Source: Polynucleobacter sp. AP-Sving-400A-A2 (lineage in GTDB: Bacteria; Pseudomonadota; Gammaproteobacteria; Burkholderiales; Burkholderiaceae). From it: a stretch of 64,000 nucleotides of DNA. A program made the translations under genes and the position numbers. The notes beneath the pieces are model-generated. The model was not told the DNA's origin. It did no database searches and saw only the letters and a list, made by a program, of their open reading frames with translations. Below, one piece after another: positions 356 through 45,712 of this stretch (positions are counted from its first letter, which is position 1; the number at the start of each line of letters is the position of its first letter). The stretch covers positions 1,426,001 to 1,490,000 of the forward strand of contig NZ_CP061312.1 of the NCBI RefSeq assembly GCF_018688155.1, read 5' to 3'.

Positions 356-644
356 CTTTTACGTTCGGGTTTTGGAACTTAAAGCCTTCGTTCAAACCTT
401 CACGTACAAAGTCTAATTCGGTGCCATCTAAATAGGCCAAACTCTTAGGATCAATAAAGATGGTGATGCCATTAGATTCAAATTTCGCATCTTCAGGAGC
501 AGCTTCATCCACGTATTCCAGTTGATAGGCTAAACCCGAGCAACCGGTGGTGCGAACACCTAAGCGTAAGCCGCAACCTTTTCCACGCTTATCTAAATTG
601 CGCTGAACATGTTTTGCTGCTTTGTCGGTTAAGGTAATTGCCAT
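321..644 (-). CDS. iscA: Iron-sulfur cluster assembly protein IscA
   Basis: A-type Fe-S carrier of 107 residues that binds iron or a cluster and passes it to apoproteins. The three conserved cysteines are present: Cys35 in TTGCSGLAY and Cys99/Cys101 in the C-terminal ECGCGESF motif. The reading frame is open further upstream, but the ATG at 644 gives the standard [13 protein letters not shown] start, is preceded by a GA-rich stretch (AAAGAGG) suitable for ribosome binding, and avoids overlap with iscU. It lies 19 bp after iscU, and its 3' end overlaps hscB. Confidence 0.95.
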
Positions 645-663
645 GATGAAAGCCTCTTTATCT

Positions 664-1050
664 TTACAGGGCTGGATGCTTTTCTTTGTAATCGGCCACT
701 GCTGCCTTGATGGCATCTTCAGCCAAAATAGAGCAGTGAATTTTTACTGGCGGCAAAGCTAACTCTGCAGCAATCAAGGAGTTCTTGATCTCTAAAGCCT
801 GATCCAAAGTTTTGCCTTTAACCCACTCAGTAACTAATGATGAGGATGCAATCGCAGAACCACAACCGTAGGTCTTGAACTTGGCATCTTCAATCACGCC
901 CTGATCGTTTACACGAATCTGTAACTTCATCACGTCACCGCACGCGGGTGCACCGACCATGCCAGTACCTACTTGGTCATCGCCTTTTTCAAAAGAACCC
1001 ACGTTGCGGGGATTTTCATAATGATCAATTACTTTGTCGCTATATGCCAT
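664..1050 (-). CDS. iscU: Fe-S cluster scaffold protein IscU
   Basis: Scaffold on which IscS-derived sulfur and iron are built into a 2Fe-2S cluster. The protein has 128 residues, the usual IscU size. Cluster ligands Cys37, Cys63 and Cys106 and the neighbouring Asp39 are all present, as is the LPPVK motif (99-103) recognised by the HscA chaperone. It sits between iscS and iscA with short gaps, in the order iscR-iscS-iscU-iscA-hscB typical of proteobacterial ISC operons. Confidence 0.97.
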
Positions 1051-37627: not shown

Positions 37628-37788
37628 TATGCACCGTAAACGACGGGAAAGTCTCACAATCCGTTTGACTCATCAGCCTGAATACTTAAGAGCAGGCTTG
37701 GTAAACAACCCCCGCTGTTTTACAGTTTGCTTTACACCCAGTTTCGTTATGAGCCGTCAATGCAACCCGCTTGACGGTTTTTTCTTTT
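37628..37788 (+). ncRNA. Structured leader or small RNA upstream of phoH
   Basis: The 234-bp gap between bcp and phoH holds a possible transcript with a hairpin formed by AGCCTG/CAGGCT (37675-37698), and ends in a strong intrinsic terminator. The terminator lies only a few bases before the phoH ribosome-binding site, so an attenuating leader is as likely as an independent small RNA. A 53-codon frame (37629-37790) runs through it without a convincing ribosome-binding site. I recognise no known riboswitch or 6S RNA pattern. Confidence 0.35.
37754..37788 (+). terminator. Intrinsic terminator in the phoH leader
   Basis: Stem CCGTCAA / TTGACGG with a 10-base loop is followed by TTTTTTCTTTT. It lies directly ahead of AGGAGAG, the ribosome-binding site of the next gene, so phoH transcription from upstream must pass it. 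Confidence 0.75.
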
Positions 37789-37800
37789 AGGAGAGTCTGC

Positions 37801-39477
37801 ATGCCATTGCCCCCAATCCCAACTCAAATTGCTGGCCAAGTAAAAGTTAATAGTAAGGACACCCCGGATTTAAAGAAACGTCCTGCGCCAGCAAAAACTG
37901 TTGTGATGGAAAGCCATGCGCCAGATTGGGCAGCAGATGTAGAGGAAGATCTTTCTGATGCTGAAGTAGTGCTCGAGAAAATCAAAAGTGATCACACTCC
38001 AGTAGTTGTGCGTAGTGGGCGTAGTGATAACAAGATAGCGAATGTTCCCGAAAAACCAAAGCGCATTAATCGTACGGGTCCTCCGAGTCTATTCGTCTTA
38101 GATACCAATGTATTGATGCATGATCCAAGCTCTCTGTTTCGCTTCTCCGAGCATGATCTCTTCTTGCCGATGACTACTCTTGAGGAGCTGGATAACCATA
38201 AGAAGGGCATGACGGAGGTTGCTCGTAACGCCCGTACAGTAAGCCGCTCCTTAGATCAATTAGTAGCCGGTACCAGCGGCACATTAGACGATGGTATTCC
38301 CCTTAGTAAGCTTGGCAATCAAGACGTATCTGGTCGACTTTTTTTCCAGACAAAGCTCACTACCCAAGCACTACCAGAGGGCTTGCCTGAAGGTAAGGGC
38401 GATAACCTCATCTTGGCAGTAGTAAGCGAGCTACAAAAGACACGTAAAGGTCAGGAAGTTGTTCTGGTATCTAAAGATATCAATATGCGCATTAAGGCGC
38501 GCGCTCTGGGTTTGCCTGCTGAAGATTACTTCAACGACCAGGTCTTAGAAGATCGCGACTTAATGTATTCCGGAGTCATGGCATTACCAGCAGACTTTTG
38601 GCCAAAGCATGGCAAAGACATGGAGAGCTGGGCTGACGGTAAATCTGGAACAATGTTTTATCGCGTAACCGGCCCTTCAGTTCTCGGCATGTTAGTAAAT
38701 CAGTTTGTCTATCAAGAAAACCCCGATGGCTCAACACCCTTCTACGCACAAGTCAAAGAGATCAACGGCAAGACCGCCCTCCTACAAACCCTGAGAGACT
38801 TCTCTCATCAGAAAAATAATGTATGGAGTGTGACCGCACGCAATCGCGAGCAGAACTTTGCCATGAATCTGCTCATGAATCCTGACGTAGATTTTGTAAC
38901 ATTATTAGGTCAAGCGGGTACCGGTAAAACCTTGCTGGCCTTAGCTGCCGGCCTGGAGCAAGTGCTAGATAGTAAGCGCTATAACGAGATCATCATCACC
39001 CGAGCTACTGTTCCTGTAGGTGAAGATATTGGCTTTTTACCGGGTACTGAAGAAGAGAAGATGCAGCCTTGGATGGGTGCATTTGACGACAACCTTGAGG
39101 TGCTACAACGTAACGAAGACGGCAGCGCTGGTGAATGGGGTCGTGCTGCCACACAAGAATTGATTCGTTCACGCATTAAAGTAAAGAGTATGAACTTCAT
39201 GCGCGGCAGAACTTTTGTCAGCAAGTTTGTGATTATTGATGAAGCGCAGAATTTAACTCCAAAGCAAATGAAAACCTTGGTGACTCGTGCAGGCCCAGGA
39301 ACCAAGATTATTTGTTTAGGTAATATTGCTCAGATCGACACACCTTACTTAACTGAAGGCTCTTCAGGCCTAACTTATGTGGTGGATCGCTTCAAAGGCT
39401 GGCGTCATGGTGGACATGTGACCCTGGCTCGCGGTGAGCGCTCCCGTCTTGCGGATCATGCTGCTGACGCACTCTAA
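37801..39477 (+). CDS. PIN-domain PhoH family ATPase (PhoH2/YlaK type)
   Basis: Fusion of an N-terminal PIN ribonuclease domain (residues about 95-230, starting at LFVLDTNVLMHDPSSL with LEELDNHKKG) and a C-terminal PhoH ATPase/helicase domain (Walker A LGQAGTGKTLLAL, Walker B FVIIDEAQNLTP). Length 558 residues from the ATG at 37801, which has AGGAGAG seven bases upstream. Related PIN-PhoH proteins are RNA-unwinding ribonucleases; the cellular target here is unknown. Overlaps the start of the NlpC/P60 gene. Confidence 0.9.
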   Translation: MPLPPIPTQIAGQVKVNSKDTPDLKKRPAPAKTVVMESHAPDWAADVEEDLSDAEVVLEKIKSDHTPVVVRSGRSDNKIANVPEKPKRINRTGPPSLFVLDTNVLMHDPSSLFRFSEHDLFLPMTTLEELDNHKKGMTEVARNARTVSRSLDQLVAGTSGTLDDGIPLSKLGNQDVSGRLFFQTKLTTQALPEGLPEGKGDNLILAVVSELQKTRKGQEVVLVSKDINMRIKARALGLPAEDYFNDQVLEDRDLMYSGVMALPADFWPKHGKDMESWADGKSGTMFYRVTGPSVLGMLVNQFVYQENPDGSTPFYAQVKEINGKTALLQTLRDFSHQKNNVWSVTARNREQNFAMNLLMNPDVDFVTLLGQAGTGKTLLALAAGLEQVLDSKRYNEIIITRATVPVGEDIGFLPGTEEEKMQPWMGAFDDNLEVLQRNEDGSAGEWGRAATQELIRSRIKVKSMNFMRGRTFVSKFVIIDEAQNLTPKQMKTLVTRAGPGTKIICLGNIAQIDTPYLTEGSSGLTYVVDRFKGWRHGGHVTLARGERSRLADHAADAL

Positions 39478-40462: not shown

Positions 40463-42958
40463 TTAGAACGGCTCATACCCACCAGAGGAGTAGCCAACTG
40501 ATCCCATCGCCAAGTTATCAAACTTGGTATAAGGACCTTGCCAGCTTAAGCGCACAGTACCGATTGGCCCGTTACGCTGTTTGCCGATAATGATCTCTGC
40601 CATGCCTTTGTCTTGGGTCGTATCTGGGTGATATACCTCATCACGGTAGATAAACATAATTAAGTCGGCATCTTGCTCGATCGCGCCTGACTCTCGCAAG
40701 TCTGACATGATTGGGCGCTTGTTAGGGCGTTGCTCAAGGCCACGATTTAACTGTGATAGGGCAACCACTGGGCACTGCAATTCTTTTGCGAGCGATTTGA
40801 GAGAACGTGAGATCTCTGAAATCTCAGTCGCACGATTCTCAGAACCAGAGCCACTCATTAACTGCAAGTAATCAATCACAACGAGGCCAAGTGTTCCACC
40901 AAAATTACGGGCAATACGACGCGCACGGGCACGTAGCTCCAAGCTTGATAAGGCACCTGTCTCATCAATCAAAATTTGGGTATTACTAAGGCGGGCAATG
41001 GCATCAGTAACACGTGGCCACTCGTCATCTTGCAGCTTACCGGTACGCATACGACTTTGGTCAACGCGTCCTACTGAACCCAGCAAACGAGCTGCTAATT
41101 GCTCACCCGACATCTCCATTGAGAAGATAACGACTGGCAAGCCCTCAGCCAATGCAACGTTCTCGGCGATATTGAGCGCAAATGCAGTATTGTGGGTCAC
41201 TACGTAATCATTAGTTACATAGGTTCTGTCTGGGTGACTAACCGAGATGCATTGAGCCTCAGTCACTCTGGATGGCTCGATACTTTTAAAGGTAAGTCTT
41301 CGTTGGCGATCCCACGTTGATCTGAGTCTTTCCTTCTTTTCAGGCAAAGTAAATGCCTGGAAGCCAGGAGCAAAACTCATATTTAAAACGTAAGCCAAAC
41401 GACCCTGCTTCTTCTGGCCTTTGTAAGTGTAGCTTGACTGTTTTTGAGCGATTGAGCAAAAGCCGCCTAATGATCTAGCCAAAGAAGCTACATCTTCTGA
41501 TAGTTGCTTACTTGCAGTACAAAAACGAATAGAGCCCCACTTCTCAATCCAACCATTCGTGTCCATCAAACCCTGAAACAGCGCGAGACGGGAAGTCTTG
41601 TTGGCTTCAAGATAGGTAGCGGGAATGTATTTATCAAAACTTCTGCAACCGAGAACGCCTATATCTTGCAGGGCAGAGCGGAAGTAATTTGTTGGCACAG
41701 ACTGACGTTGGCCATTAGCGGCGATTCTAGATTTGGAGACCAATCTCCAGTCATATGCGCTGGCATGAACCAACTCCATCTCATAGCCAGCTAAGGCATT
41801 CATGCGCTCAATCAGCTCGGGAGACTTAGTCGAGAATGAAACGCTCTTATGAGATAGGGCTAAAGTTCCGTCACCAAGCAAAGCACCTAAAACCCAAGGG
41901 TTTATTGGCAATGTATTTGAGTGGCCGAAATCTCCAGAAACAGGATCTATCCACAGCCGGTTCTTGTAGCGAACACAAGAAAGCATTTCCATTAAACGCA
42001 CAGTATTAATGACTTTGGGCGCACCCCAATCGCGATACATGACACGCCACAGATGCTCATCACAGCACTCAGCTTCACGACCATCAGAGAATGTGACTTT
42101 GTAAATCTGTTTAGTGCCTTGCGGATAGACTCCGGTTACCATGGAATGTTGACCATCCACAGAAGCAAGGCGATCACCAAAACGTAAGTCGCCCATCAAT
42201 TTCCATCCGTCAACTGTTTTTACTTTAGCATCCAGTGGCTGCGCTTTACCCATCGAAGGTCTTCCAGCAACAATCACCAAGTCGCCTTTTTGTAGGCCGC
42301 TGGTTTGTTTATCTAGATCAATGAAGCCAGTTGCAATTCCGGTGATGTCACTGCCACCTTGACGGTTATAAAGCTCATCAATACGAGCGACAACGGTTTT
42401 CAGTAATGGTTCGATCTCGAGGTAATCGGCTTTGCGACTACCTTCTTCACCAATTTGTAGAATGCGTGACTCTGCCTCATCCAAGAGCGTTCTTACAGAA
42501 CGACCTTCTGGAACAAATGCAGAGTTCACAATATTGTCAGAGACTTCAATTAAGCGACGCAGAATGCTGCGATCACGAACAATGTCGGCATAGCCTTTAA
42601 TGTTCGCTGCACTTGGAGTGCTTTGCGCTAATGAATTAAGGTAATCAATCCCAACTAAGTCACCACCCTGTTCGGACTTAACAGCCTCATGAACAGTAAT
42701 GACGTCAGCAGGATGATTGTCGCCAACTAAACGCTGAATGACCTTATAAATCAGAGCATGTTCAGGACGATAGAAGTCTTTATCAGTTAACACGCCACCC
42801 AGGCGATCCCAGGCTGTGTTATCGATCAGTAAACCGCCGAGCAAAGATTGCTCGGCTTCTACAGAATGCGGTGGTACTTTTAAAGCCTGCAAAGCTGCAT
42901 CCCCAGAACCCATCATGCCGGGATTCGACATAAGGGAACGTGAGCGGGATTCAGCCAT
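40463..42958 (-). CDS. dnaB: Replicative helicase DnaB, precursor containing an intein
   Basis: Hexameric replication-fork helicase. The precursor has 831 residues; removing residues 239-590 leaves 479, the normal DnaB length. The N-extein has the DnaB N-terminal domain (KVPPHSVEAEQSLLGGLLI) and linker and ends at the Walker A lysine (AGRPSMGK). The C-extein resumes at TAFALNIAENVA and contains Walker B LVVIDYLQLM and the conserved LSQLNRGLEQRPNKRP. Without splicing the ATP-binding loop is broken, so splicing should be essential. The gene follows rplI at the end of rpsF-priB-rpsR-rplI-dnaB. The exact start among early in-frame ATGs is uncertain. Confidence 0.95.
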   Translation of the reverse strand: MAESRSRSLMSNPGMMGSGDAALQALKVPPHSVEAEQSLLGGLLIDNTAWDRLGGVLTDKDFYRPEHALIYKVIQRLVGDNHPADVITVHEAVKSEQGGDLVGIDYLNSLAQSTPSAANIKGYADIVRDRSILRRLIEVSDNIVNSAFVPEGRSVRTLLDEAESRILQIGEEGSRKADYLEIEPLLKTVVARIDELYNRQGGSDITGIATGFIDLDKQTSGLQKGDLVIVAGRPSMGKAQPLDAKVKTVDGWKLMGDLRFGDRLASVDGQHSMVTGVYPQGTKQIYKVTFSDGREAECCDEHLWRVMYRDWGAPKVINTVRLMEMLSCVRYKNRLWIDPVSGDFGHSNTLPINPWVLGALLGDGTLALSHKSVSFSTKSPELIERMNALAGYEMELVHASAYDWRLVSKSRIAANGQRQSVPTNYFRSALQDIGVLGCRSFDKYIPATYLEANKTSRLALFQGLMDTNGWIEKWGSIRFCTASKQLSEDVASLARSLGGFCSIAQKQSSYTYKGQKKQGRLAYVLNMSFAPGFQAFTLPEKKERLRSTWDRQRRLTFKSIEPSRVTEAQCISVSHPDRTYVTNDYVVTHNTAFALNIAENVALAEGLPVVIFSMEMSGEQLAARLLGSVGRVDQSRMRTGKLQDDEWPRVTDAIARLSNTQILIDETGALSSLELRARARRIARNFGGTLGLVVIDYLQLMSGSGSENRATEISEISRSLKSLAKELQCPVVALSQLNRGLEQRPNKRPIMSDLRESGAIEQDADLIMFIYRDEVYHPDTTQDKGMAEIIIGKQRNGPIGTVRLSWQGPYTKFDNLAMGSVGYSSGGYEPF
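41189..42244 (-). other. Class 3 intein with LAGLIDADG domain in the DnaB Walker A loop
   Basis: Protein-splicing element of 352 residues (precursor 239-590), in frame between Lys238 and Thr591 of the P-loop. It starts with Ala (AQPLDAKVKTVDGWKLMGDL), not Cys or Ser, and ends in VVTHN followed by Thr as +1 residue. Trp304 (block B, DEHLW), Cys570 (block F, QCISVSHPD) and Thr588 (block G, THN) form the WCT signature of class 3 inteins. Between the splicing halves are a first LAGLIDADG motif VLGALLGDG (356-364) and a second FQGLMDTNG (461-469), the latter with Asn468 where Asp is expected. Confidence 0.9.
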
Positions 42959-44609: not shown

Positions 44610-45686
44610 TCACTGAATTTCAGGTAAGTTCGCTATTCTAGCAAAAAAATCCTGCCAAGTCAGGGGTTTACCTGCCTTATTTGCCTGCTTTGCGGCATTT
44701 AGAGCCAATTGAAGGGCAATTCTGGCTCTAGGTGCAGTCAGGGCCCCCGAAGCACAGCATCCGGGCGCGTCTGCCTCGGGAATGTTGTGCAAAGTAGCCC
44801 CGGCACCCGTTCTAGTCGTCCTGACCAAAGCAATACCCTGAACCATCGCCTGATCCAAAGGTTTAACCCAGTCATCATGAAAGCCGCCCTGCCCCGAACC
44901 AGCAAGTACAAAGCCCTGGACGGCGCTACCAAGCCAATGCGTGATAGTCTCAGAACGAGCCCCCGCATGACTAGTCAGGATTTCCACCCAAGGCCACTCG
45001 CCCTCCTGGGGAATAGGTAAATCTTCATTCCAGGCTGCTTGAATAGCCCTCACCCCAGATAGCCAAGAGGGATTAATTAGGCTCACTGAACTTGATGGGG
45101 AATTCTGTAATGGTGCATTAAGGGCTGTAGCGTGGCGCTTCGCCAAATCAATTGCCATACATCCACGCCCGTCCATCACTGCGTAAATACCACCAGGACA
45201 GTTATCAATGGGTGTGGAAGCCCAGCGCAAGGCATCCAAGAGATTAGAGGGTCCATCTGCTCCAGGTGCATTACTCGGGAGCATGGCCCCAGTCAAAATA
45301 ACTCTCTTAGACTGAGTCTGTGCTAACTTTCCACACGTTACCTGCAGAAATAAGCCCGTTTCCTCAATCGTATCAGTGCCGTGGGTAATCACAATTCCAC
45401 TTACAGCAACATCTAATAGGGCCTCTCTGACAGCAAGCCCCAAGCTAGTGAGGTGGGCATCCGTCAGGTTGCGGCTATTGATGTTGGCTAGCTGGCGTGA
45501 AACCAGCTTGATGCCCTTAGGCACCACTGACTGAACCTGTGCCACTAAAACGTCCACCCCAACTTGGCCAGCTTCGTATTGAAGGGGTGTTTCTTTTGGA
45601 TTGGGAGCGAGGCCAGCAATAGTGCCACCCATCCCCAAAACTAGAAGATGGGGAGTATTTTCAGAAATGCTGTGGTTTGAGCTCAT
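44610..45686 (-). CDS. Asparaginase
   Basis: Hydrolyses L-asparagine to aspartate and ammonia. The two threonine motifs are present: LVLGMGGTIAGLAPN near the N-terminus and VITHGTDTIEETGLFL, with a later LTGAMLPSNAPGADGPSNLLDALRWA segment. There is no signal peptide, so it is probably cytoplasmic. The ATG at 45686 gives 358 residues; a TTG at 45707 is also in frame. Divergent from lexA with a short shared intergenic region. Confidence 0.85.
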   Translation of the reverse strand: MSSNHSISENTPHLLVLGMGGTIAGLAPNPKETPLQYEAGQVGVDVLVAQVQSVVPKGIKLVSRQLANINSRNLTDAHLTSLGLAVREALLDVAVSGIVITHGTDTIEETGLFLQVTCGKLAQTQSKRVILTGAMLPSNAPGADGPSNLLDALRWASTPIDNCPGGIYAVMDGRGCMAIDLAKRHATALNAPLQNSPSSSVSLINPSWLSGVRAIQAAWNEDLPIPQEGEWPWVEILTSHAGARSETITHWLGSAVQGFVLAGSGQGGFHDDWVKPLDQAMVQGIALVRTTRTGAGATLHNIPEADAPGCCASGALTAPRARIALQLALNAAKQANKAGKPLTWQDFFARIANLPEIQ

Positions 45687-45712
45687 TTCTCTATTATCCG
45701 CCTCCAAATTAC

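Follow-up and report, generated by a model that had tools for sequence, protein, structure and literature searches.

The stretch analysed here (64,000 nucleotides of the freshwater bacterium Polynucleobacter sp. AP-Sving-400A-A2, contig NZ_CP061312.1, positions 1,426,001 to 1,490,000; called the window below) contains a dnaB gene for the replicative DNA helicase that is interrupted by an intein in the Walker A loop. Judged from the sequence, the element is very likely a full-length class 3 intein at DnaB site b that has been spread within the genus by its LAGLIDADG endonuclease, and whose copy in the window should still splice but has probably lost homing. The positions of its parts are collected in Table 1.

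The insertion is in frame, spans DnaB residues 239-590, and lies between the Lys and the Thr of the Walker A motif. It begins with AQPLDA and ends with VVTHN, followed by the extein residues TAFALN. The Pfam domains DnaB_N and DnaB_C match on either side of it, and LAGLIDADG_3 (PF14528) matches within it. In 70 empty alleles extracted from Polynucleobacter, GRPSMGK is followed directly by Thr (69/70) or Ser (1/70). As these flanking and internal domains, near-identical empty alleles, and 56 full-length copies in the genus occur together, the insertion is a genuine feature and not a product of chance. The initial annotation had described a 352-residue insertion splitting GRPSMGK from TAFALN, the removal of which leaves a DnaB of 479 residues, and all of this, including the coordinates, held on recomputation; the mass of the excised intein, given there as about 38 kDa, is 39.7 kDa when computed from the sequence. 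Intein-free alleles, which it proposed to look for in close relatives, exist: two other Polynucleobacter species (genomes G105 and G073) encode an uninterrupted DnaB with 2 and 1 differences, respectively, in 451 residues from the joined exteins, at 89.4% and 90.2% identity of extein DNA to the window dnaB. The host genome (2.03 Mb, a single contig, rated 100% complete) has one intein copy, and no second dnaB was found in it, its dnaB matches being the two halves of the interrupted gene only.

The residues that define class 3 are all in place. Of 260 loci with a tblastn hit, 253 with an alignment spanning the intein were kept for residue counts (94, 80 and 79 by source, of which 76, 80 and 71 are distinct). 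Position 1 is occupied by Ala and not by Cys, Ser or Thr, as in all 76 distinct copies from the genome search. The WCT triplet (Trp B:12, Cys F:4, Thr G:5) is complete: Trp66, Cys332 and Thr350 pair with the corresponding residues of the class 3 intein in Protein Data Bank (PDB) entry 6bs8, and are invariant among the aligned copies. His B:10, His G:6, Asn G:7 and Ser/Thr+1 are also present, as His64, His351, Asn352 and Thr+1, and a confident structure model with the HINT splicing fold matches a solved class 3 Mycobacterium DnaB intein. Thus, the set previously read from the sequence (Ala1, block B Trp, block F Cys, block G Thr, the terminal THN, and Thr+1) is confirmed throughout. The Trp304 and Cys570 of DnaB, which had been assigned to blocks B and F, are Trp66 and Cys332 of the intein by a recheck of the codons, and the alignment to 6bs8 pairs both correctly. 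Residues, site and structure model together support a class 3 intein in the DnaB Walker A loop, which should be capable of splicing. One could argue that the insertion is inactive or of the class 2 type, or that it is a pseudogene blocking dnaB, as Ala1 is also found in class 2 and splicing is a prediction from the sequence. However, the WCT triplet with its block F Cys is complete, the intein is under strong purifying selection, and in a genome rated complete, with a single dnaB, a dead intein should be lethal. We consider this explanation highly improbable; class 2 and pseudogene assignments were rejected by the full WCT set and the strong purifying selection.

By the known class 3 pathway, one of the rarer routes of protein splicing, Cys332 would attack the Lys-Ala peptide bond to give a block F branched intermediate, the N-extein would be transferred from Cys332 to Thr+1, Asn352 would cyclise and free the intein, and an acyl shift would yield the 479-residue DnaB with an intact P-loop. 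Because Thr+1 is also the Walker A Thr, the precursor would be unable to form the P-loop, and should not hydrolyse ATP. The helicase is predicted to depend on splicing, since this is the only replicative helicase found and its precursor would lack the P-loop.

The DnaBi1 intein of M. smegmatis (Msm DnaB-1, 6bs8) is likewise of class 3, but it is a 139-residue mini-intein with Ser+1 and no endonuclease, according to its description (PMC6195587), whereas the Polynucleobacter intein has 352 residues, a LAGLIDADG domain and Thr+1. The class 3 mini-intein DnaB1 of Mycobacterium chimaera (PDB 6rix/6riy) is 26% identical to the Polynucleobacter intein over the aligned part. The block B motif also differs, being DxxH in M. 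smegmatis DnaBi1 and CxxH in the window copy. The Cys pair of this block, Cys60-Cys61 (window 42062-42067), is highly conserved (Cys60 in 73/76 and Cys61 in 75/76 distinct genome copies), and could form a thiol switch with Cys332. The regulatory Cys48 of M. smegmatis aligns with Ile47 of the window copy, so its disulfide switch cannot be the same there, and a copy of that redox switch is ruled out.

The initial annotation was silent on the endonuclease domain and on its Asp-to-Asn change. Two LAGLIDADG motifs and the associated fold are present, as indicated by PF14528 and by a match to PI-SceI. The latter is the yeast VMA intein, which is of class 1 and resides in a different host and site. 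Its residues 218 and 326, which we take to be the catalytic Asp residues, are both Asp; in the window copy the first counterpart is Asp125, but the second is Asn230, and this copy is therefore not classed as an active LAGLIDADG endonuclease. Blocks C and E were reported to bear the catalytic acidic residues, and an archaeal intein without them to have an inactive endonuclease (PMC8966425). Asp is present at both positions in 56 of 57 genus copies of 352 residues, and Asn230 occurs in the window copy alone, where codon 230 is AAT versus GAT in the two relatives compared. The intein of P. bastaniensis, 96% identical to that of the window, has Asp at 230. The 351-residue copy of G032, the motif of which reads LLDTDG, is outside the count of 57. 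Among 53 copies, the window copy has three private residues, Gly74, Asn230 and Gln277, with the other 52 agreeing at positions 230 and 277. Decayed LAGLIDADG motifs also occur in other copies, e.g., L057, L058, L121 and L123-L125.

Over 152 close pairs of genus copies, the ratio of nonsynonymous to synonymous substitution rates (dN/dS) had a median of 0.043 in the splicing domain and 0.046 in the endonuclease, against 0.010 in the exteins. Because the value for the endonuclease is like that for the splicing domain, the endonuclease appears to be kept under selection in Polynucleobacter, and looks freshly broken in the window copy. This copy should still splice, but would probably make no double-strand cut for homing, as if it were at an early "degeneration" stage of the homing cycle; its relatives in neighbouring Polynucleobacter species still look mobile. 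An endonuclease with Asn230 might instead be alive, nicking one strand or retaining weak residual cutting. One of its two active sites is intact (Asp125), such active sites were described as convertible to nickases by point mutation (PMC3943268), and the 13 pairs that contain the window copy still show signs of constraint in both intein domains. However, the second private change in the endonuclease, Gln277, at a position otherwise invariant in the genus, hints at relaxed constraint, and we regard residual activity as unlikely.

A match to the intein at E 1e-3 or better was found in 60 of 151 Polynucleobacter genomes, and a dnaB match in 140. The intein is full-length in 56 of the 151, at 74-100% identity to the window copy; the other matches are a fragment in G147, at the end of a contig, one divergent copy each in G043 and G100, and one hit in a terminase-like gene (G009). 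A tree of dnaB exteins was built from 58 filled alleles, namely 54 of the 56 full-length genus copies and four from the family search, and from 70 of the 79 listed empty alleles whose match spans the site; L018 and L020, truncated by contig ends, were dropped, and L057-L060 were not used. On this tree, intein presence needs at least 31 changes, 17 of them forced by well-supported branches. For the rpoB tree, 80 of the 113 genomes with an rpoB match were used (45 filled and 35 empty); on it, presence needs 25 changes, 20 of them forced, and 170 of 500 shuffles were as low. Presence does not follow the rpoB tree, but this random scatter is limited to the mixed part of the genus, since the 33 genomes left out are mostly deep intein-free lineages, with four that carry a dnaB intein (G043, G056, G067 and G100). 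A tree built from 135 inteins includes 41 genus copies, of which 39 form one clade beside Limnobacter and the two divergent ones are placed elsewhere.

Most of the differences between filled and empty dnaB alleles lie close to the insertion point, from about -6 to +27 bp, and the majority of these are synonymous. In 80 genomes, the fixation index (Fst) between them was 0.235 for the segment -6..+9 (0/5000 permutations as high), 0.049 for +9..+27 (6/5000) and 0.022 for +45..+66 (115/5000), and did not exceed 0.007 in the other segments with a value; of the twelve segments, -300..-135 yielded none because of gapped columns. The rpoB control windows had a mean Fst of 0.002, with a maximum of 0.061 in one of 90, and a distant extein window (630..675) gave 0.032 (0/300 permutations as high). 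The five nearest synonymous sites all differ in the same direction: T at -4 is present in 37/45 filled versus 15/35 empty alleles, G at -1 in 24/45 versus 6/35, T at +2 in 33/45 versus 4/35, A at +5 in 30/45 versus 8/35, and T at +8 in 32/45 versus 9/35.

As the codon differences had been noticed beforehand, the Fst scan is post hoc, and these five sites, independent pairs and hold-out alleles served as guards. In 20 independent pairs from the rpoB tree, T at +2 accompanied the intein in 12.3 pairs and ran counter to it in 0 (averages); for a score of at least three of the five sites, the corresponding figures were 13.9 and 1.6, and T at -4 alone was not significant (median p 0.146). Among 48 alleles outside the 80, scored for the majority bases of the filled alleles among the 80, at least three sites matched in 7/13 filled versus 4/35 empty alleles (Fisher p 0.004). 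Taken singly in this set, -4 (p 0.52) and +8 (p 0.74) showed nothing, +2 was borderline (p 0.061), and -1 (p 0.049) and +5 (p 0.025) just passed. When only alleles with TAFALN were considered, four of the five sites had p 0.0077 or lower, and -1 had p 0.11.

The targets of such endonucleases are about 20-30 bp in size, and co-conversion tracts are usually longer than the footprint seen here. The length of the footprint is thus that of an endonuclease target rather than that of a long conversion tract, but we leave two readings of it open. In the first, intein-free species would escape invasion through their synonymous Walker A codons, as the endonuclease would read the DNA around GGT-AAR/ACT-GCA-TTT, and other codons would make poor targets. 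We put this forward tentatively, and rather doubt it. If it is true, a site that is essential and conserved in protein still permits immunity at the DNA level, and the window copy, stranded by a one-residue loss in its endonuclease, captures decay in nature at its first step. In the second, the flanking codons of the donor came with the intein, and were later eroded to a short stretch. A weak signal at +45..+66 fits this, as does the association of the flank haplotype with intein distance once extein distance is taken into account (partial r 0.169, 21/2000). Nevertheless, the signal is small or absent past +27 and upstream of -6, where a conversion tract would usually extend. Such a remnant is a serious possibility, a little short of probable. 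The same flank haplotype is found beside inteins as far apart as 74% identity (G032).

The codon footprint at the site and an endonuclease as constrained as the splicing domain suggest active homing in the genus, in which the endonuclease most likely carries the element into intein-free dnaB alleles. Several observations weigh against this picture. On the extein tree, presence is clustered (31 changes against a shuffled mean of 42.6, 0/500 as low). A count of label changes on trees of the proximal and distal extein, made to look for co-conversion, gave 24 and 22 changes, respectively (shuffled mean about 26), and thus no gain close to the site. Asn230 is read from one assembly, and could be a sequencing error. 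Moreover, intein distance follows rpoB distance (Mantel r 0.72 in 44 filled genomes, 0/2000 permutations as high), and exchange must therefore be mostly local, or loss frequent; the correlation also agrees with prolonged vertical inheritance and repeated loss. The scatter would then reflect an ancestral intein that was removed again and again as dnaB recombined with intein-free alleles. Apart from the Mantel correlation, the single clade of 39 genus copies is in line with such a history, and allele replacement would bring flanking codons too. On the other hand, purifying selection on the endonuclease equal to that on the splicing domain is expected only if the endonuclease is used, and the footprint is shorter than ordinary allele replacement would be expected to leave. 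We therefore see repeated loss as a minority possibility, and homing as the better explanation.

Relatives of the intein extend well beyond the genus. Matches were found in 49 of 398 family genomes and 30 of 399 order genomes, genus members included. In GTDB genomes, 201 stretches encode relatives, in Burkholderiales and also in Caulobacterales, Rokuibacteriota, a Desulfobulbaceae and others. The DnaB-b inteins of Limnobacter, Burkholderia, Paraburkholderia, Trinickia, Ramlibacter and others share the site, length class and residues, the nearest other named genus being Limnobacter (72% identity). RPSMGK precedes the intein in 79 of the 80 loci retained from the 201. Asp is found at the second LAGLIDADG position in 80/80 of these retained loci, unlike in the window copy, a count that is biased because the motif falls within one of the two search patterns; more generally, the GTDB and IMG/VR search patterns overlap the CC-HLW, LAGLIDADG or THN motifs, which biases the residue counts from both sources. 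IMG/VR contains 262 stretches encoding relatives, with a best identity of 51%, and 80 of these stretches were retained. Among 50,697 phage records, 556 matched, all below 60% identity, with helicases and a terminase among the annotated host proteins. The 17 viral copies inspected belong to the same class 3 family and share the Lys/Thr or Lys/Ser site: the residues before the intein end in the GK of a P-loop-like motif, with Thr or Ser directly after the intein. This is in line with the phage link that has been proposed for class 3 inteins (PMC5050341).

Class 3 DnaB site-b inteins are already known and structurally solved, and the Polynucleobacter copy is one more of them. A Polynucleobacter DnaB intein is presumably listed in InBase, and no paper naming both intein and Polynucleobacter was found in the library searched. 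In 2020, 1701 class 3 inteins were reported, 82.5% of them with LAGLIDADG motifs (PMC7891396). Polynucleobacter offers a useful setting within a single genus: complete genomes are numerous, and over one third of the sampled genomes (56/151) have the intein in an essential gene. With scattered presence, both catalytic Asp residues kept in all but one of 57 copies, a sharp footprint, and one single-residue loss, the homing cycle becomes directly testable in bacteria. The same holds for the proposal that a host becomes immune to homing less easily when the target site is conserved (PMC2814812). For studies of splicing chemistry with a CxxH block B, the genus also supplies class 3 inteins that bear an endonuclease and come from environmental bacteria other than mycobacteria.

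Table 1. Positions in the window of the interrupted dnaB gene, its intein and the codon footprint.
Feature	Window positions	Strand	Basis
dnaB, replicative DNA helicase precursor with intein, 831 aa	40463..42958	-	Open reading frame, DnaB_N + DnaB_C, TIGR00665 over cut-off
N-extein, DnaB residues 1-238, last residues GRPSMGK	42245..42958	-	
C-extein, DnaB residues 591-831, first residue Thr+1 (Walker A Thr)	40463..41188	-	Sequence, Pfam
Class 3 intein (predicted), 352 aa, LAGLIDADG-bearing, DnaB site b (Walker A)	41189..42244	-	
HINT splicing domain, N-terminal part, intein residues 1-95 (approximate boundary)	41960..42244	-	
HINT splicing domain, C-terminal part, intein residues 300-352 (approximate boundary)	41189..41347	-	
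LAGLIDADG homing endonuclease domain, intein residues 96-299 (approximate boundaries)	41348..41959	-	
Cys61, block B, position of class 1 TxxH Thr and of M. smegmatis class 3 Asp62	42062..42064	-	
Trp66, block B Trp of WCT triplet	42047..42049	-	
Asp125, at the catalytic position of the first LAGLIDADG motif (counterpart of PI-SceI residue 218)	41870..41872	-	
Asn230, at the catalytic position of the second LAGLIDADG motif (counterpart of PI-SceI residue 326)	41555..41557	-	
Cys332, block F Cys, predicted first nucleophile	41249..41251	-	
Thr350-His351-Asn352, block G, intein C-terminus	41189..41197	-	
Footprint, upstream edge, -6 to -1	42245..42250	-	Filled versus empty codon differences
Footprint, downstream part, 0 to +26, strongest to +8	41162..41188	-	Filled versus empty codon differences

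Some of the loci encountered in the searches are unusual. The DnaB frames of L057 (G100) and L058 (G043), of 967 and 971 residues, apparently contain two inteins each: the first is of class 3, at the Walker A site and with decayed LAGLIDADG motifs, and the second insertion, by reading, starts with Cys and lies between SDLRE and SGAIEQ. The related intein L059 (G009:C6:7200-11200; 28% identity) resides in what reads like a gene for the large subunit of a phage terminase, and G009 itself has an uninterrupted DnaB match. In two other Burkholderiales, the frames of L119 and L120 (1261 and 1242 residues) show a second weak endonuclease match, perhaps because they contain two inteins. The rpoB of G103 (C1:679685-683572) is one frame of 1331 residues in which the family match skips 818-874, as if an internal stretch were missing. 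In the window, the frames 37771-39477 and 44610-45707 near dnaB read like a PhoH-type ATPase and an L-asparaginase, respectively; both are listed with TTG starts, and their real starts may differ.
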